A stretch of 64,000 nt of DNA from Macrophomina tecta (taxonomy: Eukaryota; Ascomycota; Dothideomycetes; Botryosphaeriales; Botryosphaeriaceae), in assembly GCA_024180945.1 (NCBI GenBank), contig JAKSGN010000007.1, positions 434,001 to 498,000 on the forward strand, in the 5' to 3' direction. The notes beneath the pieces are model-generated. The model was given only the letters and a program-made list of their open reading frames with translations, was not told where the DNA came from and did not search any database. Every line of letters begins with the position of its first letter. The stretch's first letter is position 1. Below, piece after piece: positions 3,549 to 25,122 of the stretch. The position numbers were made by a program, and so were the translations under genes.

Positions 3549-3577
3549 GCCGTGCACGATATACCACCCGCTTGCTT

Positions 3578-4570
3578 CTACGCCAAGCAATTTACACGCA
3601 CATTATCCTTTGCCGTCATATCCGCCGCGCTCCCTAGCGGGAGATGCTCGTTCTCCGCGTTGATGCTCCGGTCCTTCTGCCGCAGCAAGACGCCCAGCTC
3701 CCCCGGGTGCACGACATTCAGCACCACAAGCGCCACGAACATGAGCAGCGCATCGAAGATGTACAGGAATGCCTCGTGCGTGATGATGTACCCGTCGAGC
3801 CCCTCGCAGTACTCCACCACCCTTACGAGGCTGCGTACCATGATCAGCATGCTGACGGCGTAGAGGACGCGCATGTACCTGCGCCAGCACTGCGACACGT
3901 CCGCCTCAAGCGACGCCGGCGTCGGGCTGCGCGACATCCTCTTCTGAAACACTGCCGCCGTCCCAATAAACCCCGCGAAGACGACCAGCTGCGCGATCAA
4001 GCCGAATATAGTGAGCCCCTTTCCGGCATTCGTCAGAAACGAGGTGTCGCCCCCTTTGGTGCTGCTGAAGGCGGCCGCCGTACTCATGCCGCCTCCACCG
4101 CCCTGGACCGTGATGCACAGAATGTCGCCGCAGACGAAGGCCTTGGTGAGCCGGCGCCGGGATATCGGCGAACGTGACTCGCCGCCGGTGAGCTGGATGA
4201 TACGGCCAAGCACCATGTAGATACTGGCGGCGAACAGACTCGGAGCGAGGAGCAGGTAAGAGTTCTGAATGGCGTACGGCATGAGCGTATACTGGTCGAA
4301 TGGCTGAGACGCAGAGGCGGCACGACAGGCATAGCCGATGAACTCCACTATTGTTGCATGTCCGTTAGTTCAGGTCGGATGGAGAGGGCGGCGCCTTTGG
4401 AGGGTTGACAAACTTGCTCCGCCGACGACCAGAGCGGTCATAAACCAACTTCTCCGCCGGATCATTTGCCACAAGTGAAATCCAGTTGTTGCGACGAATA
4501 GCAGGCAAAAGATGACTGCGCCGGCTTTCGTCGGCCGATAGTCGTAGAGGGGGTATCCACGGCTCGGCAT
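3578..4570 (-). CDS. RTA1-like lipid-translocating exporter family protein
   Basis: A polytopic membrane protein of about 308 residues in two exons (4570-4414, 4347-3578; 66 bp intron with GTTTGT donor and AATAG acceptor). The reading MPSRGYPLYDYRPTKAGAVIF, then FEFIGY-like (here MEFIGYACR), then YAIQNSYLLLAPSLFAASIYM, LGRII and GDILCITVQGGGGGM is the signature run of the RTA1 family (7-TM, Rta1/Rsb1). Hydrophobic segments near LIAQLVVFAGFIGTAAVF, YAVSMLIMVRSLVRVVEY and EAFLYIFDALLMFVALVVLN complete about seven helices. A conserved HPGELG motif follows the last helix. Family members confer resistance to azoles or 7-aminocholesterol, or move sphingoid long-chain bases across the plasma membrane. 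The convergent neighbour is a UPC2-like regulator, suggesting a lipid or sterol-stress context. Confidence 0.88.
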
Positions 4571-7565: not shown

Positions 7566-10378
7566 TCAGCGGGTTGTTCTGACCTCCCTGCCCTGTTGTC
7601 TCGTAGTGCTCTCAATCAGCGCCATCAGCTCGTCGGGGGTCATGTCGCCTATGCTCAAGCCCGGCGGCGAGAGGAATGAGCCATTGTTGCCATTGCCGGT
7701 GCTGAAGTCCGAGGCCGAAGAGGTGGCCGAGAGGGACAGCGCTGTTTCGAGATGGACAGATGACGACAGGTCGTCCGGTGTCAGAAGGCCGGTTGCTCCC
7801 GAATTTGAGAGAGGATGCACGGCAGGACCGCCGGGAAAGAGATTGGTGCTGTTGTTGACGCTATTGCTGTGACTGCGAGTATTGACGGGACTGTCGAGAA
7901 TGTCCGTAGAGTAAGAGGAGCTAATGCTGGAGGGGAGGGAAGTGCCGGAAGAAGTATACAGGATGCGGTGGGCCAGGGCGGAGATGTGGTTTACGTCTGC
8001 GAAGAAGTCGAAGGAGCCCCGTTGGTTAGTTGCGAGACGACCGAAGAGGCCGCAGGCGAGGCCAAGATAGGCGAGGTCTGACTGATTGCCATTTGGCTTG
8101 ATGACAGCAATAAAGAGGATGGTAGTGGCAAGAAGGGGAATGTGGATTAGCGGCCTGGGCGAGCTAGGATCAGCAACTAGCGGACGGAGGGGATAAATTG
8201 ATGAAGAGGGCGTTGAGCTTACCAATCGAGGTCGGGGTGGTGCACCTCGACGGTCTGTGTCAGACGGAGGACATCTTTGGCCGCGTCGGTGGATTCTCGA
8301 ACGGAAGACGAATACTGTGACAAAGCCGTAGTCGGTATGGAAGCTTTCCACCACACAGCCCATCGATGGATGGCCATCATGGCCTCCAGGTACTGCAATG
8401 TCACCTCAAGGCGGATGCGGTCAGCACCGTGGGTCGGTGACCCAGATTGATAGCTGCCGGGAAGCGATTCCCTCCACGACTCCAATGTCTTATGGAGCGA
8501 GCCAAGGGACCGCAGCGTGCCCTGCGGTGACTGCCTAAGCGAATTCCGGCTGTAAAGAGCCTTGACGATCAGGGCGCAAAGACGCGCGTACCGATACCGG
8601 ATCACCTCCCACCCGGTGTTGTCAATGAAGGCATTGGACTGGGCGTTGCCTCGCCTTTTTACCGGAGGAGGTAGCACAATAAAGTCGTCATCAATCATCT
8701 AAGTAATCAGCTGTTGTACCCTCTCCCTAAATGTTGCAATGACTTGTAATGTTTTTTTCCTAAGGAGAAGGGGCTCACCATTGGCAGCCCAAAGCGCATG
8801 GCGAAGGGCTTTTCGATTGAGTAGACGATCCAGAAGATTGTCCTCAGGCATTCGGCTTCTTCCTCGCTGTGGGCTGGGGGGGTTGCGGTTCGCGAGTGGT
8901 AGAACCCAAGTAGCCGCAGAGTGTGGGCGGCGTCCGTAAGCAAAGCCCGAGTTGTGTCCGTATCGCAGAGACGGCTTGCAAATATTAGCAGTGCCGTTAG
9001 TGCCTAAATTAACTACAGTCAGTGTGAGGGTTCTTCAACCCGCAGGAATAAGCATTTAAGATTGATGGACGAGGATCCAGCTGTTGGCCGGGCGCCTCGG
9101 GGAACGAACCTGCGCTTTCATGACCGACGGCTGTCTCTTTTTCAGCCGCTCCCACTGCCGTAAACCTTCTCGGAAATAGCCCATGTACGTGGACGGGTGT
9201 ACGGTCGACGCTCCACCAGCGTCATATTCCCTTTGTGAAAGTAGAGTAGATCCAATTGCAAGCACACCGTGTATGAGGGCTACAAGGGGCACCGGAGCGT
9301 TTGCAGGGCAAATCAGGAAATCTCTTAGACCTAATTCAAACTCCTCTCGTTTGACGAACGGGCTGTACCAATGGTAGTGGGCGAAAAAAGCTATCGACAG
9401 GCGTCAGCAGCTGGCTTGTCCCGTAATCTCACGGAGAAACAACCTTGGATGGACCTGTCAAAGTTGTCGCAGTGTTGCGTCTCTGGCCCGCCCAGCGTCT
9501 GCGGGATACCTGAGGAGCCTCGATCAGACGCAGACTGCTTCACCTTCATTAAAAGCCGGTTCGAGATGAGAGCAGCAGTCTTCTTGGTCTCGCGATCCTC
9601 CATGTGTGCATCCAGAAACACGAGAGGGCCAAGCGTCGATGTATCGCAGCACATGACAGTCTCCCACTCCTTGCTCCACAGCACATCTGGGCCCAAGCAC
9701 GGTTTGTGGTCCAAAGGGTGACCCTCGCCTTCACTGTCCGGCGACACGTCCGCAAACAAGATCTCTTCCTGTAATGAACAGCCTGGCCGGCAAGACTGTG
9801 CCGAGTCGTTATGCGAAAGATCGAGGCTGGGTGAGGACTGCGGATGCGCCCTCGCCGGAGGCATGGACGCCGTGAATAAGCTGCTAGGAGCAAATGTCAA
9901 CCGTATTTCCGCTTCCTATGCTGAGAATGCATACTTACGCCCGAACGGCCTCTCCATCACTCAGCTCGCCCCGGGTTCTGTAGTCATGAAATTCTATGTC
10001 GAAGTATCCCCCGCCTCCAAAGCTGCCGACTTCCATGTGGGCAGGAGACGGCGTAGGAGAGAGCTGAGCCCATCCCAATACTGAGGAGCGTTTACTGTGT
10101 GCGGTGGATGCGGAGGGGATGTCGTATTGGCACGCCAAGTTGGACTTCTGAGTCCGCAGTCAGTTTGTTTTTTTGGCTGCGTGGTTGGTGGGGTGGGTCG
10201 GACTCTGCACTGTGAGCATGGGCTGCTGCCGTCACCTGAACTTGTTGATCAGCTGGCGATTGGAAGGAGCATGCGGTGTCTGGAGCCCACATCTTGTTTT
10301 CCGTTGTTTGCAGGTGGTGCAGGCACCTTTTCGTCGGGTAATTTTGCGCACAGGCTTGGAGTTCGAGGAAGCCTCCAT
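7566..10378 (-). CDS. Zn2Cys6 transcription factor with fungal-specific TF domain; candidate pathway regulator
   Basis: Eight exons can be joined into 782 residues: 10378-10291, 10235-10204, 10147-9939, 9883-9444, 9390-9110, 9003-8779, 8698-8223, 8163-7566. All seven introns are 53-106 bp. The zinc cluster is split over the first three exons: RRKGACTTCKQRKTRC, then DGSSPCSQCR, then KSNLACQYDIP. This gives C-x2-C-x6-C-x5-C-x2-C-x6-C, with the usual basic linker after it. The middle homology region is clear: FFAHYHWYSPFVKREEFE, then TYMGYFREGLRQW, LTALLIFASRLCDTD, ECLRTIFWIVYSIEKPFAMR and a run of amphipathic helices to about residue 620. The tail is Ser/Asn-rich. It is the first gene of the chain-elongation locus and is transcribed away from the isomerase. 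Pathway-specific regulators of this type often sit inside fungal metabolite clusters; that assignment here is inference. Confidence 0.85.
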
Positions 10379-11025
10379 AATGCTCTCTGGGAGTGGAAGC
10401 GCTAAGCGCACACGGGCCTATATGGAGAATCTTTTCTTTATTTTGTTCTAGCACCGTCGTGGCATCCTTGGGATTAGCCGGCAAGTAAGTGGGATGGCAC
10501 CGTAGGTCGGAGCGTATTTTGAACGTTATCGATTGTGGAGAAGTGCTTCCGAGCCGCCTCTCGAGGATGCGCATCCCCGTCTCATCATGCTGTACAACCA
10601 GCCATTCGGCCACCATGCTGTTCTGAGACGCGCCGTATACGGGCTCACGGGCGGGCCGCAGCGGACCCGTCCGCAGAGCCCGCGACGGGGGCGGCCAAGA
10701 ACCTAAACACCGGATTAGTCTGGGCCCAGAAGGATGATGGGCTAGCGGGACGGGGCAGGATTTAGCCGCTTAGTTCTCCTGGCAATGAACAGGCGGAGGG
10801 ACAATGATGACTGGAAGAGCAATCGTACGGCACGGCTTACAACAGATTACGTTTGGCCCTTACATATTTTATCCTCCAGTCAGCGCTGGCCGGGTGGGGA
10901 CGCCGCCCCGCCTGCCGCCACCAAGCACCCAAACGCCCCGTGAAAAAAAAAGCTGAGGAATGCGGGTTCCGCATGCCATCCGAGGATTGCGTGGACGAGC
11001 AGTGTGCGCGAGAGGGCTGACGATG
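10379..11025. other. Intergenic region upstream of the regulator, downstream of the isomerase
   Basis: About 650 bp holding the regulator promoter and the isomerase 3' flank. It contains one CGGACC hexamer (10662-10667), within gcggacccgtccgc, a near-palindrome with half-sites typical of zinc-cluster targets. A pyrimidine-rich T stretch occurs on the regulator strand near 10430. No gene seen. Confidence 0.45.
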
Positions 11026-13521
11026 CTACCAGACCAACTGGGCTTCGGCGGGCAGTTGGGCGGCAGCAGCCTTCACCGCGGTGCTTGCAGCAGCGCGGCC
11101 CCCAAGCCCGGCAAGCTTCTGCGCCGTCGCCTCAATCCACGGCCATGCCTTTGCACGTTCTCGCTCAAAGCGCGCGATCTTGTCCTCGGCCGCCAGCGTC
11201 AGTCCAATTTCATCCAGCCCGTCCAGGAGGGCCGCGCGCCCGTGCGGCTCGACGACGAACGCGTACAGCTCGCGGCCGGCCTCGCTGAAGACTTTCTGCT
11301 GCTCCAAGTCCACGTGGAGCTGCCGGCCTGCGCGCGCCTCGGCGGCCATGGCCGCCAGGGCGGCGGCGCTCTCGACCCGGACGGGCAGCAAGCCGGCCTT
11401 GAAGCAATTATTGTAGAAGATGTCGGCAAAGCTGGGCGCGAGGACGCAGCGGAAGCCGTAGTCCAGCAGCGCCCACACGGCGTGCTCGCGCGAGCTGCCG
11501 CAGCCGAAGTTGGGGAGGGTGACGACGAGGATGCTAGAGTGCCGGTACGCGGGCTGGTTGAGCACGAAGGCCGGCCTGGGGTTCCCGTGCGGGTCGAAGC
11601 GGAGGTTGTAGAAGAGGCCGGCGCCCAGGCCGGCGCGCGAGACTGCCTTGCAAAACTGCTTGGGCATGATGCAGTCGGTGTCGACGTTGGCGCGGTCCAA
11701 GGGCGCAGCCACGCCTGTGATGCTCCGGGCATCCAGACACCGGCCGGGAGCAGCAGCAGCAGCAGCAGCAGCAGCGACGGCGGGCACTGCCTCCTCGCCG
11801 GCCTCGTGCTCCGCGTCCTCGGCGGCAGCGTCAGGAGCGCACGCCAGCTCCACCTCCACCGGCGTGGTCGGCGGGGGCAGCCGGGCGGGCGCGTAGCGGC
11901 GGACGTCAGCGAGCCTGCCCTCAATGGCAGCGGCGGCGGCCATGGCGGGCGACACGAGATGGGTGCGGCCGGCGGTGCCCTGCCGGCTCTCGAAGTTGCG
12001 GTTGGAGGTGGAGGCGCACCGCTCCAGCGGCAGCAGATGGTCGTCGTTCAGGCCCACGCACATGCTGCACCCCGCCTCCCTCCACTCGAAGCCAGCGCTC
12101 TGGAAGACGTCGTGCAGCCCCTCGGCCTCCGCCTGGCGCTTGACCTGCCCAGACCCAGGCACCGCCAGCGCCAGCCGCACGTTAGCCGCCACCCGCCGGC
12201 CCTTCAGGATGGCCGCGGCCGCGCGGAGATCCTCGATGCGTGAGTTGGTGCACGAGCCGATGAACACCTTGTCCACCACCACGTCCGTCACCCGCGCGCC
12301 CGCCTGCAGCCCCATGTAGGCCAGCGCCTGCTCGCACGCCTTCCGCTTCGCCGCGTCCGCGAACTCGTCCGGCCGGGGGATGGTGCCGTCGACGGGCACG
12401 ACCTGCTCCGGGCTGGTGCCCCACGACACGGTGGGCGCCACGGCGGCTCCGTCAATGCGCACCGCCTGGTCGAACACGGCGCCCTCGTCGCTGCGCAGCG
12501 TGGCCCAGGACCGCACCATGCGCTGCCACGCGCTGCTGCTGGCGCGGGGCATCAGCGGCCGGCCGCGCAGGTAGTCGACCGTGGTCGCGTCCGGCGCGAC
12601 CAGGCCCGCCCTCGCGCCCGCCTCGATGGCCATGTTGCAGAGCGTCATGCGTCCCTCCATGCTGAGCGCCTCGACGGCCTCGCCCGCAAACTCGAGCGCG
12701 CACCCAGTCGCGCCCGCGGTGCCGATGCGGCCGACGATGTGCAGCGCCAGGTCCTTCGCCGTGACACCCGCCGCCAGCCGGCCGTCGACGCGCACCAGCG
12801 CCGTCTTCCACCGCTGCGACACCAGCGTCTGCGTTGCCAGCACATGCTCCATCTCCGTCGTGCCGATGCCGAAAGCCAGCGCGCCAAAGGCGCCATGGGT
12901 TGACGAGTGAGAGTCGGCGCAAACCAGGGTTAGCCCAGGCTGCGTGAAGCCGAGTTCCGGCCCGCTGCGCTGCGTTCGTTACTGAGCTCGTGGGCAGTGC
13001 GGGAAGGCGTGGGCTTACATGACGTGCACGATGCCCTGGTATGGCGACGAGAGGCCGAAGTAGGGGATCCCGTGCTCACGCGCGTTCTGCCTGAGGAGCA
13101 CGCATTGGAGCTTGGCCTGCGGGTCCTTGACGTAGCCGGAGATGCTCACGAAGGATCCACGGGGCTCCGTCGGCACGTTCTGGCGACGGTGATCTGTCAA
13201 CGTTACTGGCTCAGGCTGCGACCCTGACTCGGCTTGCTGACGGGCCAGGGCTGGGGGGGGGAGAGGGTGCGTACGTGATCTGATGTTGCCAGCGTCAGGT
13301 CCGGTCGCCGCGTGCGCCGGCCGCGGGCTCGCAGGCCGTCGAATGCCACGGGCGACGTGACTTCGTGGATGAGATGTCTGTCTGGGGTCTGTCAGCACGG
13401 GCGCAGCTGTGCCGGGCGCTGACGGCGGGCTGGTATTACCGATGTAGAGCAGCACAGTGCCATCGCTGTTCGCGGCCACGCAATGCTGTTCAAACAGCTT
13501 CTCGTACAGGGTCTTGGCCAT
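11026..13521 (-). CDS. Isopropylmalate isomerase-type (aconitase-superfamily) dehydratase, fused LeuC-LeuD
   Basis: Four exons (13521-13440, 13381-13275, 13179-13019, 12964-11026) give 762 residues, the size of fungal 3-isopropylmalate dehydratase. The N-terminal aconitase-type domain starts [11 protein letters not shown] and continues [15 protein letters not shown] and LATSDHNVPTEP. The [4Fe-4S] ligands are visible: GSCTNSR (Cys about 354) and GCSMCVG (Cys about 415 and 418). The small swivel domain has [23 protein letters not shown] and [15 protein letters not shown]. The linker between the halves contains an Ala run encoded by an AGC-type microsatellite. The enzyme moves the hydroxyl of a 2-alkylmalate to position 3. 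Because the locus also holds a synthase, an aminotransferase, a transporter and a dioxygenase, I read it as a dedicated HtyD-like paralogue rather than the primary LEU1 gene. Sequence alone cannot show substrate preference. Confidence 0.88.
11749..11775. repeat. (AGC)n trinucleotide microsatellite in the isomerase linker
   Basis: About nine AGC units on the + strand, read as Ala codons in the isomerase. The repeat lies between the catalytic and swivel domains and extends an Ala-rich linker. It is a likely site of length polymorphism with little effect on the folded domains. Confidence 0.85.
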
Positions 13522-13771
13522 TTCGACAACGACGCTCTGGCAGCTCTCATGGCGGGCGTCGCGATTTCTTCAATGTAAGCAGTCAAGTGCGGCGCGCCCC
13601 GGTGGTGGTTGCGAGCGCTCGGATGGCAGGGCGTCAAAGGGCGCGCAGCTGCAATCTGGAGCAGTCCGAACCCGTGCCGTCAACCTTTCCGGCCCCGTGT
13701 ACGTCTCGAACGCCAAGACGCGAAGTGCCAAAAAGGAAAGAGAGAGAGAGAGAATGCAGGGACGTTGCGCG

Positions 13772-14025
13772 CGGACCGCCCGAGGTGCATTGCTTGGCAG
13801 TGCCGTGTTTCGGTACGCAGGTAGGGCTTGTCCGAGAAAACGGGTCCGCGCCTCACGCCGTTTCCCTGAACCCCGCACATCTTCGCTCCGCGGTCCGCTT
13901 CCTTCAGCCACCCCGCCTTTTCCGTTCCTCTCCACGCCCGCGAACCGCCTGGGCCAACCGGAGATAAGGGCGGCGCATGTTACTGTTGGCAATCAGTAAC
14001 TGCGGACCACACCTTATCTCGGACC
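13772..14025. promoter_or_regulatory. Cluster of GGTCCG/CGGACC hexamers in the isomerase promoter
   Basis: Five copies within 254 bp: CGGACC at 13772, 14003 and 14020, GGTCCG at 13843 and 13892. Chance expectation for this hexamer on both strands is well under one. CGG-containing sites suit a Zn2Cys6 regulator. The same hexamer recurs in the other two cluster promoters. A binding function is inference. Confidence 0.35.
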
Positions 14026-14274
14026 TCCGCCTCTAACCCTGCGGAGACAATGCCCAGGCTCTTGCTGCTGGATCTCACCGTCCCTACTCAGCCCCAGGGT
14101 CTACGGATAAGCGAGGATCATATGCTGGTTCCACTTTCACAACGGGGGCCAGATGCGATTTACCGCTGTTTGTTCTTCCGACGCTTCATATTACTGCATG
14201 CGGATAGTCTCATGTTGAACAGCACAAGGGCGACAAGAATGATGTACTGCTACTTTTCTGAACCCCGAGAGTTG

Positions 14275-14294
14275 CACACACACACACACACACA
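14275..14294. repeat. (CA)n dinucleotide microsatellite
   Basis: Ten CA units in the intergenic region between the isomerase and the aminotransferase. No function is suggested. Confidence 0.9.
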
Positions 14295-14739
14295 TGAGCA
14301 CTAAGAAGCTGTGTGCGCGATCAAGCGAGCATGGAGCATGGAGGTGCATATGGCCTCTCCCTGACAGCCCGAATGGAATGCTTGTAGCTACTTTAGCATC
14401 TTAGCAATATCAACCAAGACACGAAGATAGCTTCCAGCAGTCTGGTACTAGCAAAACAGCTTCATGGTATCGCCGAGCCAGTATTAGAAGAAGCCTTCTA
14501 GGGAAGGTAGTGATCGGACAAGCAATGCAGATAAACGACCCTGGGCCCAAGATCGCCAAACAGGCATGTGAACTGGTTGTGCCAAAATTCAAAACAAAAA
14601 ATAAATAAATAAATGAGACCGTAGACAATCCAGCTGAATGTTCGCCATCCCCTAGCCTCTATGAACGACAAGATTACGCCCAGTTCCCTCTACTAGCCGA
14701 GCTGAGGAAGGCACGCTTGTTGTCTTCAACCTGGCTCCG

Positions 14740-17700
14740 TCAAACAACCACACTCCACTTGCTCTCCTCACCTCCATACATCCTTCCCTCCAACCACCCT
14801 TTTACCTCCTCCGCAATCCCGCTCTTCGATCCGCACCCCTTGCAATCTATCCACCTTCCCTCCCACAGCACCCTGCCAATCGGCACCACGCACGCGGCGG
14901 TCCCCGTGCCAAAGGCCTCCAGCAGCTGCCCCCGCGCCGCCGCCCTCTGCAGCTCCGGCAACGAAACCGGGCGCTCGCAGACCGTGAACGAGCCGCAGCC
15001 GGCGGCAGCGGCACCCGCGGCGGCGGGGCGCCTCTGGCGCAGCAGCTCGAGAGCCGACTGGCGGATGACCCCGGGCAGGATCGTTCCGTCGAGCGGCGGA
15101 GTGACGACCTCGACGTCCAGCACCTTGTCGGCGCCATGCTGCCTCCGGCGGCCGAAGACGGCGAAGAAGTTCATGGTGCCCGCCTCGCCCACCCACGGCC
15201 CCTCCTCTACCTCGCCGCCACGCAGCCCCTCTTCCTCCGCAGCTGCACAGCCGCGGCTGTTCTTCCGCTCGCTCAACCACAGCACCTGCGCGCACCCGGC
15301 CTTGCGCGCCTCGCTCTCCGCCGCCAGCGTCGGCGCGTAGTTGCCGCCGATTTTCGACGCGCCCGGGCCGCCGGGACAGGCGCGCACGAAGCGGGACGGC
15401 GGCATCGCGTACAGGGAGAGCGCCGTGGCGGAGGCAGAGAAGTAGGATGTTGCCGGGCTGGCGACGACGTAAAGGAGTGCGGACGTGGGCGCGGAGACGC
15501 CGAGTGAGGCCGTAGTGGACACGAGAACGGGTCGGATGTAGAGCGAGTGAGGGGGGCCGCTGGACGGTGGGGCGAGGTTTAAGACGTTAGCTGGGCTGTT
15601 CCGACTAACGTGTTTCACCACCGAGCCGTCCAAACCACCGAGCCGTCCACTTCCTCACCAAAAACGCATCGGATGAAAACTCAACACGATGCATCACCAC
15701 AACGCTATGAAATCATCCCAGAAAACTCAGTATATTAACCTTGCTATCCAATCTATTGATACCCACGCGTCGCACAGCGAAAGAGCTACCTGTCGCGAGT
15801 ACCTTGCTCCCCGATCAACCGTACGCGACCGACGCGCAGGTGCCATACCACGCGTAGAAGCTGTGCCTAACGGCAAGAAGCTTACCAAACATGAAGAAGG
15901 CGCGATTGTCGAGCGTATACTGGACCTGGATTCGAGAGGGTTTCCGCCCTCCAAGGATATACTACGTGATATGGCCAACAAATTGCTGGCAGAGCGCGAC
16001 GGGGGTACCGTGGGCAAGAACTAGCCAGACAGGTTCATCAGCCGCAGAGATGAGCTCAAAACGTGCTGGACTCGCGCGTACGATCGCCAGCGAGCCTTAA
16101 ACGAGGACCCAGTGGTTATCGAGCGGTAGTTCGACCTCGTTCGCTCTGTGAAGGAGAAGTACGGTATCCTAGACGAGGATACGTACAACTTTGATGAAAC
16201 TGGCTTTATGATGGGCGTAATAGGCTCTCTGCTAGTTATTACAGGCTCTGAAAGGCGCGGAAAACGAAAATTTATCTAGCCAGGCAATCGCGAGTGGACT
16301 TTAGTTATTAACGCGATTAGCGCGCTCGGTTGGACGATCCCACCCTTTACGATCTTCGCCGGCAAGAACCACATTAACACTTGGTACGAAGACACCTCTG
16401 GCATGGAGGACTGGGTTGTTGCTGTCAGCGCCAACGGCTGGACGATAAATGAGCTTCGAGTGAAGTGGTTAGAGCACTTTAACGCGCATATAAAGTCGCG
16501 TACTGTGGGGGTGTACCGGCTGCTCATAATCGACGGCCACGAGAGCTATAACTTAATTGAGTTCTAGGATCTGTGCAAGGAGGAGAAGATTATTACCGTC
16601 TGTATGCCGTCGCATTCGTCGCACCTCCTGCAGCCGCTTGATGTGGGCATTTTCTCGCCGTTAAAGCGGGCGTACCGCTCTTAGATCTCAGGCTTGGCGC
16701 GCTTGATGGCCACAAAAATCGACAAACCAGCCTTTATACAGGCGTACAAGGCGGCTTATTACAAGGTGTTCACAAAGGAGAATATCTGTGCAAGCTTCCG
16801 AGGAGCTGGCTTGGTGCCGCTCGACCCGCAGGTTGTGTTATCGAAGGTTGATGTCAGGCTTCGTACGCCTACACCGCCTGCACCAGAGGCTGTCCCATGG
16901 GAATCCAAAACGCCCAGCAATATGCGCGAATTAGAGGCCCAATCAAGGCTACTTTATCAGCAGATAAGGCAGTATTGCAGCTCCTCACCTACAGAGGCGC
17001 GTGGATCGCTTCAATCGCTCGTAAAAGGCGCGTCATTCATGGTGCACTCTGCTGTGTTAGTACGCGACGAACTCTCTGCCCTTCAAAGGGCCACAGAGGC
17101 CGCAAACAAGAAGAAACAGCGTAAAAGAAAGTACGTACAGAATCGGGGCACGCTAACAATGGTAGACGGCGGTCAGCTATCTAATCCTCAGGGCGCTGGG
17201 GGGCAGAGGGCAGCGAACAGCCCTCTAAGAAGGCTCGCGCAGAGGGCGCGCAGGGGGCTCAACGGCGCTGTGGGAACTGCGGCAAGACCGGGCACAACAG
17301 ACGGACTTGTACAGAGGAGGTAACAGGTACTGAGTAATCTAGGATCGCTACTAGTTTATTGAAATTTTTGTGTTGTGTTGAATAACTTGAGTTCAAAGTG
17401 TGATGTTGGTGAGGAAGTGGACGGCTCGGTGGTTTGGACGGCTCGGTGGTGAAACACGTTACATGATGTTTTTTTTCCCCTTTTACAAAAAAAAAAAAAA
17501 CGAAAAGAAATAGTTCAGAGGAATGAAGAGGGGAAAGGGGCTGCCGCGTGCTCAATGGTTGAAAGAGAACGGAACTGAAGCTGGAAGAAATGATGACGAT
17601 GATGATGATGATGATGATGATGCTTACTTTCCGACCCACCGCCCTTCAATCTTCACGAACATGCGCACCAACTTCACGAACTCGGCCTCGTCGAATGTCG

Positions 17701-18254
17701 GCAGAGAGATGCGCGCCGCAGACCTATTCAGCCGTGCGGCATTGAGCTCAGGCCGGAAAAGTCGGAGACGTCCCGCCGCGTCGCGGTATGCCTTCATCCC
17801 CTCGAAGCACTCGAAGCCGTAATGCAGCCCGCTGGCAACGGGATCCAGAACAATGGGGCCGTACGGCGTTATGCGGGGAGTGTCCCACCCGCTTTCCGCC
17901 GTCCACGTGACGCGGAGCATGTGGTCTGCCGGGAAGAGAAGACGGCGTTAGTGACAACCGATAGTGTGCGTGCATCGCATTCATTTCTCAGCCGCTCTTG
18001 CACTTGGATTTGAGCTCGATCCCATCCTTCCGCCGAGCAGTCTTTCTTTTGCCACTGCTATTTGGGGGACGAGAGGAAAAAGAAAGAAATGATGCGGTTT
18101 CCATACCCGTAACCGTCTTTCCAAACGCAATGGCCTCCCCCATTGGCAGGGGCTTCGGGTTGTTCACCAGCGTGACCTGCAGCTTGGATGCATCTAGTGG
18201 CGCGGCAATGTGCCATTCACCGACATGTTCATTTTCTTCGAGCGACGGCGCCAT
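14740..18254 (-). CDS. Branched-chain-type amino acid aminotransferase, intron carries a transposon
   Basis: Three exons (18254-18107, 17925-17628, 15559-14740) give 421 residues of a fold-type IV PLP aminotransferase. The order is typical of BCAT: GKTVTDHMLRVTW, then YGPIVLDPVASGLHYGFECF, EGMKAYRDAAGRLRLFRPE, HSLYIRPVLV, SKIGGNYAP (PLP lysine about 218), EAGTMNFFAVF and VTPPLDGTILPGV. The second intron runs 17627-15560, about 2.07 kb, because a DNA transposon has inserted in it; without the element it would be about 214 bp. Donor (GTAAGC), branch site (GCTAACG) and acceptor (CCAG) are intact, so splicing could still give the full enzyme. The frame is open upstream to 18377 with an Arg-rich stretch (CRLPLTRCFRLRLS) that could be a mitochondrial presequence; the shorter start is preferred. 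It would transaminate the elongated 2-keto acid, like HtyB. Confidence 0.85.
15608..15661. repeat. Left terminal inverted repeat of the transposon
   Basis: Fifty-four bases identical to the reverse complement of 17406-17459. They begin immediately after the TA duplication. An internal direct repeat (15617-15650) contains the 14-mer CCACCGAGCCGTCC twice, a candidate transposase binding site. Confidence 0.93.
15689..17337 (+). pseudogene. Inactivated Fot1/pogo-type transposase (DDE_1 family)
   Basis: One reading frame runs from 15689 to a G run at 17198-17203, with five TAG codons at 16022, 16127, 16277, 16565 and 16682, all in the same frame. Domains in order: an N-terminal helix-turn-helix (KSSQKTQYINLAIQSIDTHA), a CENP-B-like segment (KKLTKHEEGAIVERILDLDS), then the DDE core with all three acidic residues kept: YNFDETGF, LLIIDGHESYN and QPLDVGIFSPLKRAY. 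After the G run the frame shifts. The expected C-terminal zinc knuckle, CGNCGKTGHNRRTC, is read only in the next frame, ending at 17337. Each TAG replaces a Trp or Gln codon of the family and is explained by a CpA to TpA transition on one strand, the RIP signature. Confidence 0.9.
17406..17459. repeat. Right terminal inverted repeat of the transposon
   Basis: Mirror copy of 15608-15661 with no mismatch over 54 bases, followed directly by the TA duplication at 17460-17461. Confidence 0.93.
17589..17622. repeat. (GAT)n trinucleotide microsatellite at the aminotransferase intron donor
   Basis: About ten GAT/GAC units directly inside the 5' splice site of aminotransferase intron 2 (the donor GTAAGC is read on the minus strand at 17627-17622). 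It belongs to the original intron, not to the transposon. Confidence 0.85.
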
Positions 18255-19046
18255 GGCTGCAGGAGATGTGTGGATGCTTGGCAAGAGGAGAACGGACTCT
18301 GCAAGGTCAGAACTGTCTTGCGGGGACAGGCGCAGTCTGAAGCATCTAGTCAAAGGAAGCCGACAACAAATACACAATCATCCTAGACATCCTCTCCTTG
18401 GCGCTAGAGGGCATCGCTATACCAACCGCCAGCCAAACTAGCGCTCCGGTTCCGGCTCCGTCTTCCCCCACACATCAGCTATGGCGGCTCCGGAGGGGCA
18501 GTCGTTCTGTAAGTCGGTAGAATGCGAGAGCGAGAGAAAGAGCCGGGTCCGGAAGCGGCCGTCAGCACAGAGGGGTCCGAGGGTCCGCAACGGAGCAGAC
18601 CTTGCAAGGGGTTGGAAATAACAGCGCATCATGCCTCAAATACTACCACCCATGTACAGGTGCTCCGCGGCTCCGGGGAAAGGCGCAGGGCTCGAAAAGG
18701 CTAGCGTGGCCGAGAGTGGAGCCAAAAAAAGAAAAGAGAGAGAAACGAGGTGGCACAGTCGTTGATCCCTGTCGCTCCAGTGGCTACTGCAGGTACTGCA
18801 GGTCAGACGGACGGCCAAATGTGATGCGTGTACGCGAGACCGCCCATGGGGTGGCCGATGGCGAATAAGTGGCCCAGGCCAGGCTTGGCCGTTGGTTCGC
18901 CGAGCAGTCATGGCGGGACCAATTGTTCTTCTCCGCCTGGTGCTGCCGCGCCCTGGCCGGATATCTATGAGGCTGAAGTGCCGCTTACTCTCGCATTTCT
19001 CCCGCTCTTTCTTCCTTTCTGCATCCTGCTGCCGCATCGCTGCGCC
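18255..19046. promoter_or_regulatory. Divergent promoter between aminotransferase and MFS transporter
   Basis: About 790 bp shared by two divergently transcribed cluster genes. Three GGTCCG hexamers lie within 42 bp (18546, 18574, 18582). Another tight feature is a tandem CTGCAGGTACTGCAGGT near 18787. Bidirectional control of transaminase and exporter would suit a metabolite cluster. No gene is seen in it. Confidence 0.45.
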
Positions 19047-20713
19047 ATGGCCCCGTCATCCACCGCCGCGTCCAGCAATACCCACCTGACAAAATCGAAC
19101 AAGTCCAGCGCCTTCGAGCTGCGCGAGATTGGCGATGACGGCCACCAACGCCATGCCCAGGACGCCTCCAACGACAGTGCTGGTGCCTCCACCTCGAGCC
19201 ACCGCCTCTCCCACGTCGACCAGTCGAGCGAGTACCTGCAAGGACCTGGCTTGACCCCGCCAGAGTCTTTGGCCGACCGCAACGAGTCGCAGCTGCCACC
19301 CGTCGACGGCGGCAAGGATGCCTGGCTATTCCTGGCCGCATGCTTCCTCATTGAAGCTTTGGTGTGGGGTGCGTAGAGCGCTGTGCATGCTGAGAGCACT
19401 CAATTGGGACCCGTGCTAATGCCCGCCCAGGTTTCGCATTCACATTTGGAGTCTTTCAGGAGTACTACAGCCGCAACGAGCCCTTCATTGGAGAGAAGAA
19501 CATCGCCGTCATTGGCACCATGGCCATGGTACGATACTGTGCCCAGCCTGCGTCGTCCCACCACTCACTGACACCGCAAAACAGGGTATCATGTACCTGG
19601 ATCTTCCGGTTGTGTTCGCCTTGCTGCAGATGCACCCGCGGTTAAAGCGATGGGCAACAGCCTTGGGGCTCGTTATCATGTGCCTGGGGCTCGCGCTGAG
19701 CAGCTTCTCGCGTAACACGACCCACCTGATCCTCACTCAGGGCATCTTCTACGCGATAGGTGGCAGTATCGCCTATGCGCCTACCATCCTGTACATGGAT
19801 GAGTGGTTTGTCAAGCGAAAAGGGTTCGCCTTCGGTATCATGTGGGTAAGTGTCTCGCCGTTCCCAACGCCCCCCCTGCCACATCTACCACCGCGTTTCT
19901 TACGAATACTACGTCTAGGCTGGCACTGGTCTCTCCGGGGTCATCCTGCCGATCGTCATGCAATGGCTGCTTGACAAGTGGGGCTTCGCCACCACCCTGC
20001 GGATCTGGGGCGTCGCGTGCTTCGTGCTCACCGCGCCGCTTACCTTCTACGTCAAACCACGCATCCCCATCTCGCAGGCGCAGCGCGTGCGCTCGTTCAA
20101 CCTCCGCTTCCTCTACAAGCGGCCGTTTGCGTTGCTGCAGCTGGGCAACGTGCTCGAGGGCCTCGGGTTTTTCCTGCCCAACATCTACCTGCCCACGTAC
20201 GCGAGCACCGTGCTCGGCACCTCCTCGCTGCTCTCGTCCCTCACGATCGTCCTGTTCAACGTCGCCTCGGTCTTCGGCTGCATCGCGATGGGCTACATCA
20301 TCGACCGCGTGCCCGTCACCACCGGCATCTTCATCTCCACCGTCGGCGCCACCGTCGGCGTCTTCTTGCTCTGGGGCTTCGCCCTGAACCTGCCGCTGCT
20401 CTACGTCTTCTGCATCGTGTACGGCTTTTTCGCCGGCTCTTTCACCTCCACCTGGCCCGGCATCATGCGCGACGTGACGAACCGCATGCGCGGCGCGGTC
20501 GACCCCAGCATGGTGTTCGCGTGCCTCGCGGCCGGCAGGGGCATCGGGAACGTCGTCTCGGGCCCGCTGAGCGAGGCCCTGGTCGAGGCCGGCCAGTGGA
20601 AGGCCGGCTGGGCGTACGGGAGCGGGTACGGTGCGCTGATCGTGTTCACCGGCATCAGCGCGTTGCTGGGCGGCTTGAGCTGCATTGGTCGTTTTGCGCC
20701 GCAGCTGCTTTGA
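19047..20713 (+). CDS. MFS transporter, monocarboxylate (MCT/SLC16)-like
   Basis: Four exons (19047-19368, 19431-19528, 19585-19845, 19919-20713) give 491 residues. A hydrophilic N-terminal tail of about 90 residues ends in PPVDGGKDAWLFLAACFLIE, the classic start of helix 1 in fungal MCT-like permeases. Then come FAFTFGVFQEYYSR, a helix-4 region with GIFYAIGGSIAYAPTILYM, the loop DEWFVKRKGFAFGIMWAGTG, LSGVILPIVMQWLL and, in the second half, LFNVASVFGCIAMGYIIDR and VFCIVYGFFAGSFTSTWPGI. About twelve membrane helices fit. Substrates in the family are short-chain carboxylates and related small acids; in metabolite clusters such proteins often export or import intermediates. Here it is divergent from the aminotransferase and convergent with the dioxygenase. 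Moving a keto acid or amino acid derivative is plausible but inferred. Confidence 0.9.
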
Positions 20714-21492
20714 AAGCCGCCACCGCAAAGTTCGTCTAGTCTTCCTGTCGTCACACGGAGGTGGTTTTAATTGCCGCTTCCACCGTGAAGGGGGCGGCGG
20801 GGGATGATCTCCCCCGAAATATGAAAAAGCTGGTATTGTACTGGCTGGATTTGAGAGAGAGAGAGAGAGAAAAAAAAAAAGGCCTCGTTTTTTTTTTCAT
20901 AGATAAAGATCGTATAAACAGCATAGGGTCAGTCCGTTGATACCGCGATGACGTATGGACAGTGGCATTTGATCAAGCTGCCGTTTCGGCCACTTCAGCA
21001 GTAACCAATTCAAAGAGCAAGGACACATTTCTTCCTCCGCTCAGCTTTGTTAAAGGCGGACTTGGATAGTTAAAGAATGCCTTTTCCAGTCCGCAGCCAT
21101 ATGAAGAGCAGCCCTTTAATTGGCTTCGCGGATGACAGAGCGCAAAATACCGGGCGTGAACAGGACATGGGATGGTATTGTACTGGGTATGTGGCATTGT
21201 ATTCTGGGAATAAAGGACTGACGCTGTAGATGCTGGAGTAGGGAGTCTTTCACAGTTATCGTCTTTTTTTTTTTAAAAAAAAAAAAAGGGAAAAAAATTG
21301 TTGGCATTGACATATTCTACTGACTGCATTTCTCCAGGGGCCAATTCCTTTGCTCAAAAAATAAAACAGAGTTAACTCCTCAAAAATGTGTTTTCCCACA
21401 TCCACCTTGTATCTACCTTCCGCTTTGGAATGCCGCAAAAGTATAATGACGGAGACAGAAGACCTTCCGGGTCGCTGTGCTCAAGACTCGGC
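20714..21492. other. Convergent intergenic region, no supported gene
   Basis: About 780 bp between the convergent transporter and dioxygenase. It holds low-complexity tracts: (GA)n followed by A11 near 20854-20880, T10 near 20888, and a T10/A12 hairpin-like pair near 21264-21287. The poly-T/poly-A pair could fold back on itself. No coding frame is convincing. Confidence 0.5.
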
Positions 21493-22582
21493 TCAAGCAT
21501 CCTGTGCAATCTGTTCAGTAGCAACAGGGGCAGCGAGCCGGGGGTAGTGGGCAGCATTCCTCATGTCCTGGTACTCAAGTGCACTCAAGTGCTGGTACAG
21601 GGGCTTCTGATCCTGAGCGATGAACTCGGGTAGAGGGCCGACATCGACGTGGCGGTCGGCCTTGCAGAAGTAGACCAGGCTCCAGCGCTCGGGCACGACG
21701 TCGCTGGCGAGGCCCTTGGGCTTGGTGACCTGGTGGAGGCCGGCGCGCATGCCGCCGTTGGTCCAGCGTTGCAGCGTCTCGGAGGCGATGACGACGACCT
21801 CGTCCTTGGAGCCGTAGGGCACCGGGATGAAGTTGCCGGGGTTCTCGCGGTCCTCGTACTCGAGCCCGGGCGTCTTGTCGGGGAAGACGAGCGAGATGAT
21901 GCCGAAGTCGTTGTGCGGCCAGATGCGCGAGATCTTGCCCGTGTCGAGCTTGGATCGCTCGATGGGCGGGAAGTGGTTGATGCGGATGGTGCTGGCCTCG
22001 TTGGTGCAGCGCGACGAGAACAGGGCAGGGTCCAGCTGCATGGCCGTGGCCAGCTCTTGCAGCAGCTGCACGCACAGCTCGCCACAGTCCCTGAAGAAAC
22101 TCTCCATCAGGTGCTGGTATCCTGGCAGCTCCTTCTCCGCCGGCCATTTGTTGGGGTACTGCTTGTCCGCCGGGTCGCCGCAGTCAAAAGACTCCTGCAA
22201 ATGGTCAGCAAAACGGAACGAGGAGAGTGATGGTGCGCTGAACGACGTGTGCACCCACCTTGTTGTCACTGAACTCGGGAGCGATGACGTCCCCCTTGTT
22301 GCTCTCCAGCCACCACGTCTTCTCCTCGCCGACAACGCTCCAGCCGCGCTGCTGGCTCTGGCCGGGGTCGTTGCGGATGTCCTTCTTGACGTCGAAGGGA
22401 AGGCGGAAGAACTTGGTGACCGCATCGAAGACAGCCTGGACCTCTTCGACGGGCACGCTGTGGTTGATCAGCTTGACGAAACCGTAGTTTGTCAGGCCTG
22501 TCAGAAGCTCTTTCGCAAAAGCGGCCCGCTCCACAGGCGTGCCATTGCGGAGGGCGCGAGCGTCGATGATCGGGATCGTCAT
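21493..22582 (-). CDS. Non-heme Fe(II)/2-oxoglutarate-dependent dioxygenase, isopenicillin-N-synthase-like
   Basis: Two exons (22582-22259 and 22194-21493; 64 bp intron) give 341 residues. The N-terminal DIOX_N part reads IPIIDARALRNGTP and LTNYGFVKLINHSVPVEEV. In the C-terminal jelly roll the iron triad is visible: His and Asp about 202 and 204 in RIWPHNDFGIISLVF, and His about 262 in AGLHQVTKP. The 2-oxoglutarate Arg/Ser pair is in ERWSLVYF. All catalytic residues are present. It is divergent from the synthase over a 588 bp promoter. In echinocandin-type clusters, related enzymes hydroxylate leucine, proline or homotyrosine. An amino acid or elongated-keto-acid derivative is therefore the most sensible substrate guess. 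Fungal gibberellin-type or plant-like flavonoid oxygenases belong to the same family and cannot be excluded. Confidence 0.88.
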
Positions 22583-23170
22583 TGTGAGTGCGAGGTTTGG
22601 ATGGAAGCTGGATGGGTTTGATTCATCTGTCCTTCCGACCCTGAGAAGAGGCTGTTATATCTCCCTCCTCCACCAGCCTTTGCCATTGGCATCCCATGCG
22701 CATCTCAGTAGACTGACTTGCGGTTGCTCTCTCAGCCTCATCGGTCCCGTTCGTGCTTTGCCGCAATAGGCATGACGGTCCGAGCGTGTCAGCGGATCCG
22801 GGTGGCAGCGGGCCCCGGAAACGTATCCCATTGGCAGATCCGGACCGGTAAGGCAGGGTCTGCAGATCTCGGAGCGCGGGTCCGGCGCTGCTGGACAGTG
22901 GGGGTCCGCGGCTGCCTGGCAATCCTTCAGGAGCACCACCCACGTTGCAGACGGCCCAGCACGGTCCCCGGAGCGTTGTCACTGTCCGAATTCCAGGCCA
23001 GATCAAGCTTCTGGGCTGGGCTACCACTGCCGCGATGGTAGTTGCTCGCGACTTCGGAGTCTCTGATTTAATGCCCGTGATGCTCGTGCAGAACTCTGCT
23101 CATCGTCAGGAGACACTTCGGACCCGTGCGCTTATCAGAGGTCAACAGCAGAAACCGACAATCAGCCAAG
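22583..23170. promoter_or_regulatory. Divergent promoter between dioxygenase and synthase with GGTCCG repeats
   Basis: 588 bp between two divergent cluster genes. It carries GGTCCG at 22777, 22879 and 22903 and CGGACC at 22841 and 23119, plus a CGGATCCG palindrome near 22793. The density far exceeds chance for a hexamer and matches the isomerase and aminotransferase promoters. It is a candidate target of the local zinc-cluster regulator; binding has not been shown. Confidence 0.45.
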
Positions 23171-25122
23171 ATGGTAATGTATGCAATGCCCCTCGTCCGC
23201 CTGTGTCTTACCGCCAACACCACGTAGGGCAAAGAATGCTTCGTCCAAATACGACCCTTTCAACCCGCCGGCCCTGCAAGACAGACAATGGCCAAGCAAG
23301 AGGATCACAAAGGCTCCTCGGTGGCTTGCGACGGACTTGAGGTAGGCAGGCCGCATCACGGGGCTCCGCAATACCGTCAGCAGCTGAGATCCGCCGCAGA
23401 GATGGGAACCAATGCCTGGAGTACCCCATGACTGTGGAGCAAAAGTGGACGTACTTCCAGATGCTCGTCAAGACTGGCTTCACTGAAATCGACGTCTCGT
23501 TTCCCAGCGCCTCGCAAACAGAGTTTGACTTCACCCGCAAGCTGGTCGAGACCGCTGGTGCCGTGCCGGATTCCGTTTGGCTGCAGGTCCTCTCGCCCTG
23601 CCGCATCGAGCACATCAACCGTGCAGTCGAGAGCGTCACGGGCGCAAAGAAGGCCATTATCAGCCTGTACATCGCCTCCAGTGACTCCTTCCAGGAAATA
23701 ATCTTCGGCATGACGCGGCAGCAAGTGCTCGACCTGGCCGTCGACTGCGTGCGGCACACCCGCAGCATCACCAAGGATCACCCCGTGCGAGGCCAGCAGA
23801 CCGAGTGGAACCTGATGTTCAGCCCGGAAGCGTTTTCAGACACGGACGTCAGCTACAGCGTGCAGCTGTGCGAGGCCGTCAAGGCCGCCTGGGGCCCCAC
23901 GGAGGCCAACCCCATCATCCTCAACCTCCCTGCCACCGTCGAGATGTCGACCCCCAACGCCTTCGCGGACCAGGTGGAGATTTTCTGCCGCTCCATTACC
24001 GACAAGGACAAGGTCTGCGTGTCCCTGCACCCGCACAACGACCGTGGCTGCGCGGTCGCGGCCGCCGAGCTGGGCCAGCTGGCCGGTGCCACGCGCGTCG
24101 AGGGCTGCCTCTTCGGCAACGGCGAGCGGACGGGCAACGTGGACCTGGTCACCCTGGCGCTGAACCTGTACAGCCAGGGCGTGGACCCGCACCTGGACTT
24201 CTCCGACCTGGCAGGCATCAAGCGCGTGGCCGAGGAGTGCACGCGCATACGCGTGCATCCGCGGGCCCCCTACGCCGGCGACTTTGTCTTCCTGGCTTAC
24301 AGCGGCTCGCACCAGGACGCCATCAACAAGGGCTTCAAGAAGCTGCGCGCGGGCGAGACGCGCAACAAGTGGAAGATCCCGTACCTGGCCATCGACCCAG
24401 AGGACATCGGGCGCACGTACGAGTCGGTCATCCAGATCAACTCGCAGAGCGGCAAGGGCGGCGTTGCGTGGACTCTGCAGCGCGCCGTTGGCCTCGACCT
24501 GCCCAAGGGCTTCCAGATCGCCTTCTCCAGGATCGTCAAGGACGTCTCGGACCGGCTGGCCCGCACCATGACGCCCGAGGAGATCATCGAGCTGTTCCTC
24601 GAGACCTACGACGTCCTCAACAAGGATCCGCGCATCATCGCTGCCCGTTACACTTGCCTTCCGCACGGAGACGGCGTGGCCGTTGAGGCAGAGCTCGTCG
24701 CCGGTGGCCAGATGCTTAGCGTCAGCGGCTCGGGCTACAATGTCCTGGCTGCGGTTCAGGACGCCGTGGTGAGAGCGTCATCATCTACCACGCCGCAGCT
24801 GTCGCTCAAGAGCTATGAGCGCACGCTGTCGCCGAAGAACGGTCAGATCCACACTATACAGATCGTGGAGTGCCAAAGCGCACGTATGTTAACGAGCTCT
24901 TGGGGTGCCAACGTGGCAAATGACACGAGGATGGCCATCGTTTTGAGTGCTTTTGCCGCGGCCCTGGTGAGTGGCACATGTTGTTCTCGTCCATTGGAAA
25001 TTGGCGCACATGCTAACAATCAGTTGCAGCCCCTGATTGACCAACATCCCTCAGATACGCTATTGAAGGAGGATTTCCACCAACTTGTTGGTTTAAGCAA
25101 CAAGGCTCGAGCATCAGCTTAG
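23171..25122 (+). CDS. 2-Isopropylmalate synthase-type enzyme (acetyl-CoA:2-keto acid acyltransferase)
   Basis: The proposed exons are 23171-23173 (the ATG alone), 23235-23341, 23400-24966 and 25024-25122, giving about 591 residues. The last intron (24967-25023, GTGAGT...GCTAAC...CAG) is in frame, so the sequence also reads through it. The N-terminus SSKYDPFNPPALQDRQWPSK and ITKAPRWLATDLRDGNQ is that of fungal LEU4/LEU9. The catalytic barrel has the LRDGNQ motif (about 36-41) and the metal-binding HPHNDRG (about 247). A C-terminal LeuA regulatory domain follows from about 450 (GQMLSVSGSGYNVLAAVQDAV). The enzyme condenses acetyl-CoA with a 2-keto acid, the first step of chain elongation. Retention of the regulatory domain leaves open leucine-type feedback. 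Clustered with the isomerase, aminotransferase and dioxygenase, it is the HtyA-like candidate. The single-codon first exon is the weakest part of the model. Confidence 0.85.

Follow-up and report, generated by a model that had tools for sequence, protein, structure and literature searches.

A putative chain-elongation gene cluster in Macrophomina tecta whose synthase stands apart from LEU4 and HtyA

Genes resembling those for three enzymes of leucine synthesis lie together in a 64,000-nucleotide stretch of the Macrophomina tecta genome (contig JAKSGN010000007.1, positions 434,001 to 498,000), which as a whole is referred to here as the window, and this raises the question of whether they form a pathway of their own and, if so, which chain it would lengthen. 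They encode an isopropylmalate synthase (IPMS)-like enzyme, an isomerase, and a branched-chain aminotransferase (BCAT), and are accompanied by genes for a regulator, a transporter, and an Fe(II)/2-oxoglutarate (2OG) dioxygenase. The original prediction had placed them close to the homotyrosine (hty) genes of echinocandin producers. After our analysis, we lean towards a dedicated one-carbon homologation pathway that would derive from duplicated and remodelled leucine enzymes and would be separate from the kind represented by hty and the AM-toxin (AMT) genes. In our best reading, its product would be a hydroxylated non-protein amino acid made from a probably aliphatic 2-oxo acid.

In regard to its organization, the cluster at 7.6–25.1 kb reads regulator (-), isomerase (-), BCAT (-), monocarboxylate transporter (MCT)-like transporter (+), dioxygenase (-), and IPMS (+) (Table 1; positions are those of the window unless a contig is given, C7, C31, and so on being contigs of this 54.1-Mb, 37-contig genome, in which the window is C7:434001-498000). 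The spliced GT..AG models of the five structural genes are complete, in frame, and stop-free and yield full-length proteins; splice sites were chosen by us, with frame and conserved motifs, not transcripts, serving as the check. Together with the domain matches, these models bear out the families, gene order, and intact motifs that had been claimed for 7566..25122. With 5 IPMS-type, 3 LeuCD-type, and 8 Aminotran_4 places spread over 54.1 Mb, chance would be expected to give about 0.007 pairs of IPMS and isomerase within 12 kb genome-wide, or about 2e-5 if a BCAT is also included. The cluster is real and non-random. In agreement with the prediction of second copies, a whole-genome search revealed a primary-looking LEU4 (C7:2.53 Mb), LEU1 (C29:0.55 Mb), and BCAT (C35:2.00 Mb) elsewhere.

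The window synthase carries the motifs LRDGNQ, HPHNDRG, and GNGERTGN, intact by reading, and revealed HMGL-like and IPMS_D2 domains only, with no LeuA_dimer match. Since its HMMER alignment with Mycobacterium tuberculosis IPMS still reaches the start of the regulatory region, a remnant of this region seems to be present. The genome harbors five IPMS-like places (the window, C7:4.82, C33:0.14, C7:2.53, and C31:0.69 Mb), of which those at C7:4.82, C33:0.14, and C31:0.69 Mb are c. 60–62%, 51%, and 48% identical to the window protein, respectively. The C7:2.53 Mb synthase is 91% identical to Lasiodiplodia LEU4 and looks like the primary gene, and a diverged LEU4 paralogue with about 70% identity to Lasiodiplodia LEU4 and the H/E pocket kept was found at C33:142622-144253. 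Relatives were collected in two database searches with the window and C31 synthases as queries, using the best 120 of about 8000 matches each. Among the matches listed, the window IPMS was 99% identical to a protein of Macrophomina phaseolina MS6, and outside that species identity did not exceed 64%, apart from a single partial protein with 70%.

A tree of 72 hand-chosen rows (24 of 55 S-type, 18 LEU4, and 25 HTY-type sequences, the window synthase, and four own copies) resolved three clades. LEU4 comprised 20 rows (support 100/100), and the clade termed S/M comprised 26 rows (100/100), including the window synthase and the C7:4.82 Mb copy, which stands in the trees as MS6 protein P0008 (94%, tblastn, intron translated). 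The HTY clade (25 rows, 100/99) included the C31 copy, A. pachycristatus HtyA, Glarea GloH, A. mulundensis P0135, and an AMT7-named protein; HtyA, GloH, and the AMT7-named protein had been retrieved with the C31 synthase as query. P0168, which we had assigned manually to the HTY set, fell outside this clade on a long branch and was omitted from the HTY clade used in the tests. Using approximately unbiased (AU) tests, a clade of the window IPMS and HTY was rejected (p 9.7e-44), as was a clade of the window IPMS and LEU4 (p 0.005). Thus, by this phylogeny the window synthase belongs to a third clade apart from LEU4 and HtyA, and the kinship with hty genes, whose HtyA and GloH group with the C31 synthase, did not hold up. 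A. mulundensis P0037, considered as an HtyA candidate, was rejected since it is S/M-type; from this species, the HtyA clade contains P0135 instead.

The three clades also differ in their residues (numbered as in M. tuberculosis IPMS). At H167, a histidine was found in 18/18 LEU4 database rows, serine in 24/24 S/M rows, and phenylalanine in 21/25 HTY rows, while E214 was glutamate in 18/18 LEU4 rows, methionine in 21/24 S/M rows (valine in 3), and glycine in 15/25 HTY rows. Every LEU4 and S/M row retains S216, N250, P252, and T254, which are replaced in 25, 25, 24, and 25 of the 25 HTY rows, mostly by G, G, A, and S. The metal ligands D81, H285, and H287 and the acid/base residues E218 and H379 are kept wherever S/M rows cover them (R80/D81 being gapped in 4/24). 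A loss of catalytic Glu218 in the window synthase was rejected as a reading, as Glu214 is the changed residue and E218 is conserved. In a larger set of 123 rows, mostly best matches to the window IPMS, position 167 was S in 57, H in 65, and M in 1, and the 57 S rows form exactly one side of a tree branch. LeuA_dimer (PF08502) was absent from 55/55 S-type database rows of this set and present in 62/63 H-type rows, the exception being a partial protein. Judging from species names, S/M proteins presumably occur in Dothideomycetes, Leotiomycetes, Eurotiomycetes, and lichen fungi; a literature search among open-licence papers revealed no experimental record or description of this family.

A comparable split was seen for the isomerase. 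Its Fe-S motifs (SCTNS and GCSMC) are intact by reading, and it is 99% identical to a database protein of M. phaseolina. The genome carries three LeuCD-type isomerases, namely the window copy, one at C29:0.55 Mb that falls into the primary LEU1 clade, and one on C35. In a tree of 37 rows (34 of 120 database rows, without bacterial large subunits or a number of near duplicates, plus the window and two own copies), 17 rows formed the primary LEU1 side and 20 a specialised set (100/100) that includes both the window and C35 copies. Placing the window isomerase on the primary side was rejected by the AU test (p 0.028), so that, in line with the original prediction, neither it nor the synthase grouped with primary leucine enzymes. 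The second specialised isomerase stands alone at C35:683811-685697, with no synthase match in c. 8–10 kb on either side.

Synthase and isomerase also seem to be linked in other fungi. For 8 named species, the matches listed included an S-type synthase as well as a specialised isomerase, and in 6 of these both single-member entries sit on contigs of identical size: Diplodia corticola (2,090,884), Mytilinidion resinicola (498,988), Lophium mytilinum (1,952,340), Kalmusia (2,023,348), Lachnellula suecica (57,009), and Delitschia confertaspora (17,596). Identical contig size speaks for linkage but does not show adjacency; the exceptions are Kalmusia, where the two genes bear the adjacent locus tags N0V90_008727 and 008728, and, by size, Delitschia. 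In Lasiodiplodia and Macrophomina, contig sizes differ between entries, each of which stands for several sequences; for Macrophomina, linkage is seen directly in the window. In Phylliscum, the one species noticed with both primary genes listed and used as a control, the contigs differ (247,127 vs 148,893).

The BCAT shows the motifs SKIGGNYAP and GTMN, intact by reading, and its family is also backed by a BCAT match in the PDB. It scored 284.7 bits, below the cut-off of 307 of the equivalog NF009897, which the C35:2.00 Mb BCAT exceeded with 347 bits; for the C2:1.12 Mb copy, only two separate pieces were scored. The C35:2.00 Mb BCAT and the LEU2 at C7:2.63 Mb look primary, as the C2:1.12 Mb BCAT probably does. 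Intron 2 of the window BCAT is 2,068 bp long because a 1,852-bp terminal inverted repeat (TIR) transposon, which the original prediction had not mentioned, is inserted in it and leaves the coding exons untouched. The insertion is probably recent, since at least 40 full-length places in the genome, window copy included, are 100% identical (40 of 304 candidates scored). The best transposase-like frame of the transposon contains 9 stops, and a Tc5-type helix-turn-helix match was below cut-off.

The dioxygenase has DIOX_N and 2OG-FeII_Oxy domains and, by reading, an intact H-x-D...H motif. Its best PDB match was UcsF (9ktp, E 1.5e-72, nearly whole length), an enzyme that acts on an aliphatic amino acid. 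Among the loci compared, its closest match outside the window lies at C7:4.82 Mb, a dioxygenase with 51% identity over 226 aa and additional N-terminal pieces, and no partner reductase was recognised in the window. The transporter matched MCT8/MCT10 in the PDB (E 4e-19 to 5e-18), MCT10 being a carrier of aromatic amino acids. The regulator revealed a Zn2Cys6 half-motif at about 10321 (-) and, in a piece that we had spliced by eye, a Fungal_trans match (PF04082, E 6.8e-8).

Two further loci of this genome help to place the cluster. At C7:4.82 Mb, the second S/M synthase and its dioxygenase lie head-to-head in the same arrangement as the window pair, and C7:4813000-4842000 also holds three further 2OG domains, a cytochrome P450, a methyltransferase, and a sugar transporter, with condensation domains of a non-ribosomal peptide synthetase (NRPS) from C7:4.831 Mb. 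Because this pair mirrors that of the window, the same arrangement occurs twice, once near an NRPS and once without. At C31:691-697 kb, an HTY-clade synthase lies with pieces of an aconitase-type isomerase and a LEU2-type dehydrogenase, followed by an aminotransferase at 725 kb and NRPS domains at 739–755 kb. For the isomerase pieces, hacA, IPMI, and archaeal-LeuD-type models scored best, and they are 25–28% identical to the window isomerase. As far as the sources describe the hty/AMT composition, C31 matches it better than the window does (PMC7778625, PMC8102738, PMC5561558). Furthermore, an Aminotran_4 gene was found beside a large NRPS at C35:3062000-3087000.

We infer that the window genes act together, and likewise their substrate class, step order, and product. 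The starting point would be an amino acid, most probably aliphatic and branched (leucine or isoleucine), which the BCAT would deaminate; the S/M-type synthase would condense the resulting 2-oxo acid with acetyl-CoA, and the LeuCD-type isomerase would turn the 2-alkylmalate into the 3-alkylmalate. Decarboxylation of this intermediate would then fall to a dehydrogenase from another locus, either the C31 copy or the primary LEU2 (C7:2.63 Mb), and BCAT would re-aminate the lengthened chain. Finally, the UcsF-like dioxygenase would hydroxylate the side chain, and the MCT8/10-like carrier would move the product. That the substrate is aliphatic is a reasoned guess because of the pocket residues and the UcsF-like partner. 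The chemistry originally proposed, one pathway towards a homologated, hydroxylated amino or keto acid, remains the best reading, although the relatives had been named wrongly.

Several points weigh against a dedicated homologation pathway of this kind. A profile search of the genome gave no match for an isopropylmalate dehydrogenase (Iso_dh) in the window; leuB was the best model for only two of 8 Iso_dh loci (C7:2.63 and C31:0.70 Mb), isocitrate, tartrate, or homoisocitrate dehydrogenase models fitting the remaining six better. The synthase fell only just below the leuA_yeast cut-off (685.7 vs 697.4) and appears as an isolated, long branch in the tree. Since the isomerase passes the curated leuC (722/560) and leuD (226/116) cut-offs, it might serve isopropylmalate itself. 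Its separation from the primary side rests on a modest p-value, and the groups of all AU tests, for synthase and isomerase, were named only after the trees had been inspected. The linkage pattern has its own exceptions, as the C7:4.82 Mb synthase and the C35 isomerase have no synthase or isomerase partner close by. The transposon in the 2-kb intron may impair the BCAT, and the equation of residues 186/257/259 of the plant methylthioalkylmalate synthase MAM1 with M. tuberculosis 167/250/252 is one we infer from residue identity and spacing.

Some of these points would fit a feedback-insensitive leucine or ketoisocaproate branch, in which the synthase would still make isopropylmalate, escape leucine control, and feed a secondary pathway requiring hydroxyleucine or methylproline. 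A synthase without LeuA_dimer and an isomerase above the leuC/leuD cut-offs would be expected there, LEU2 would suffice and therefore no dedicated dehydrogenase would be needed, and the UcsF-like partner has a precedent in the L-leucine dioxygenase that, according to the portions of the source considered, takes part in echinocandin synthesis (PMC7778625). However, the pocket histidine is changed in 57/57 clade members examined, which is unexpected for an unchanged substrate, and both synthase and isomerase lie outside the primary clades, so that we regard this branch as unlikely. Slightly less credit is given to an aromatic homologation, yielding homotyrosine or homophenylalanine by the logic of hty with an independently recruited synthase. 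The enzyme classes agree with it, since the echinocandin literature, as far as considered, describes the same classes plus a 2OG hydroxylase for homotyrosine synthesis (PMC7778625), as do the MCT8/10-like carrier and the exchange of the pocket histidine for serine. Against it, HTY rows replaced S216, N250, P252, and T254, while 24/24 S/M rows keep all four, and the genome already holds an HtyA-type locus at C31. Moreover, in the part of the plant study considered, the MAM1 variant with the IPMS proline was the only one unable to elongate phenylalanine (PMC6603273).

It appears improbable that the NRPS locus at C7:4.82-4.84 Mb and the window cluster cooperate in trans, the latter lending isomerase and aminotransferase to a split pathway towards a residue of a peptide. 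Besides an S/M synthase and a matching divergent dioxygenase, that locus has an NRPS, a P450, and three additional 2OG domains, and isomerase, BCAT, and dehydrogenase are absent among its scored matches, but the two loci are 4.36 Mb apart and their synthases are only about 60% identical. That the cluster is decaying or silent and no longer has a function is hardly to be expected, although the probably recent transposon, the lack of a dehydrogenase in the cluster, and the long, isolated IPMS branch would suit it; all coding exons and the motifs read are intact, and the MS6 IPMS and the database M. phaseolina isomerase are both 99% identical to the window proteins. We keep to the dedicated homologation of a probably aliphatic chain. 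As a wider and more tentative proposal, which we put forward as possible but short of probable, S/M synthases and their partner isomerases may constitute a third system of homologation in fungi, next to LEU and HTY/AMT, that extends across several classes; in the window, an NRPS-free version would supply a free hydroxylated chain-extended aliphatic amino acid via its own carrier, and the duplicated synthase-dioxygenase pair would feed an NRPS elsewhere in the genome.

Table 1. Positions of the cluster genes, the transposon, and the divergent intergenic region in the window.
Feature	Position	Strand	Details
Zn2Cys6 transcription factor	7566..10351	-	half-motif + Fungal_trans; start/introns approximate
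LeuCD-type isomerase	11026..13521	-	762 aa; exons 13521-13440, 13381-13275, 13179-13019, 12964-11026
Branched-chain aminotransferase (BCAT)	14740..18254	-	421 aa; exons 18254-18107, 17925-17628, 15559-14740
TIR DNA transposon, BCAT intron 2	15608..17459		1,852 bp, perfect 54-bp TIRs, TA duplication
Major facilitator superfamily (MFS) transporter, MCT8/MCT10-like	19047..20713	+	491 aa
Fe(II)/2OG dioxygenase, UcsF-like	21493..22582	-	341 aa; divergent from IPMS
Intergenic region, dioxygenase/IPMS, divergent	22583..23170		588 bp
IPMS-like synthase, S/M clade	23171..25122	+	593 aa; exons 23171-23178, 23228-23341, 23400-24966, 25030-25122

Regarding the surroundings, the genome revealed 75 matches to the NRPS condensation domain, none of them on C7 below 3.42 Mb, and no NRPS-like gene without such a domain was found among the window open reading frames (ORFs) read and scanned. 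Nine ORFs were scanned on the right-hand side; 7 of them could be assigned to families (mechanosensitive channel, EF hand, Arf, amidase, actin, Paf1, and zinc-binding dehydrogenase), and 2 had no match; an isochorismatase domain was also found among the window ORFs, and none of these matched ORFs revealed an NRPS or polyketide synthase part. To the left of the cluster, at 2337-4369, a Fungal_trans_2-like regulator (match below cut-off) adjoins an RTA1-family gene.

As to significance, two fungal enzyme families that are alike by annotation, mostly as '2-isopropylmalate synthase', can now be separated by a simple residue signature, and a widespread, apparently untested homologation cassette is indicated. 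If the substrate is aliphatic, leucine synthesis would have given rise to at least two forms of amino-acid lengthening in fungi, and the pocket changes would in part parallel those of the plant glucosinolate enzymes. The enzymes of the cluster are also candidates for the production of non-protein amino acids.

Compared to known systems, the hty/glo and AM-toxin (AMT5-AMT8) clusters share with the window a clustered isomerase, an aminotransferase, and an IPMS-type synthase without LeuA_dimer, and the 2OG hydroxylase of echinocandin clusters corresponds to the window dioxygenase. However, the window synthase lies in another clade with other pocket residues, the isomerase is LeuCD-type, where an aconitase-type one (HtyD/AMT8) would be expected for hty/AMT, and a dehydrogenase (HtyC/AMT6) or NRPS of the hty/AMT kind, whose absence the original prediction had also passed over, was not found in the cluster. 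With the primary leucine pathway (LEU4, LEU1, LEU2, BAT), the window genes share the expected reaction types and an isomerase that clears the curated cut-offs, but they are clustered, without LeuA_dimer, carry H167S/E214M, and fall into separate clades. To UcsF-type fungal 2OG dioxygenases, the likeness is one of sequence, over nearly the whole protein. In Aspergillus niger, an IPMS-like synthase (cimA) is clustered with an MFS transporter (mfsB) and its overexpression led to citramalate; the published description, as far as considered, does not mention isomerase, BCAT, or 2OG neighbours such as those of the window (PMC6862759). Citramalate synthesis was considered for the window synthase, but no A. 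niger protein appeared among the named matches listed in either IPMS search (the top 120 of about 8000 in each, with some names truncated). BCAT duplicates are described in fungal secondary clusters, e.g., batC/batD in that for aspercryptin, which recruited a BCAT as the window did, with no synthase/isomerase cassette mentioned in the portions of the paper considered; for A. nidulans, the same source states a single isopropylmalate isomerase and a single functional gene for the synthase (PMC8262921). Finally, according to the parts of the plant study considered, MAM synthases, which homologate amino acids, have lost the regulatory domain and carry another residue in place of the IPMS histidine, and the MAM1 variant with the IPMS proline gave more leucine-derived than methionine-derived products (PMC6603273). 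By that published description, MAM1/MAM3 types also change N257 and P259 (MAM1 numbering), both of which the S/M clade keeps, while the plant glucosinolate and fungal S/M synthases are alike in being IPMS duplicates without the regulatory domain and with a changed pocket histidine.

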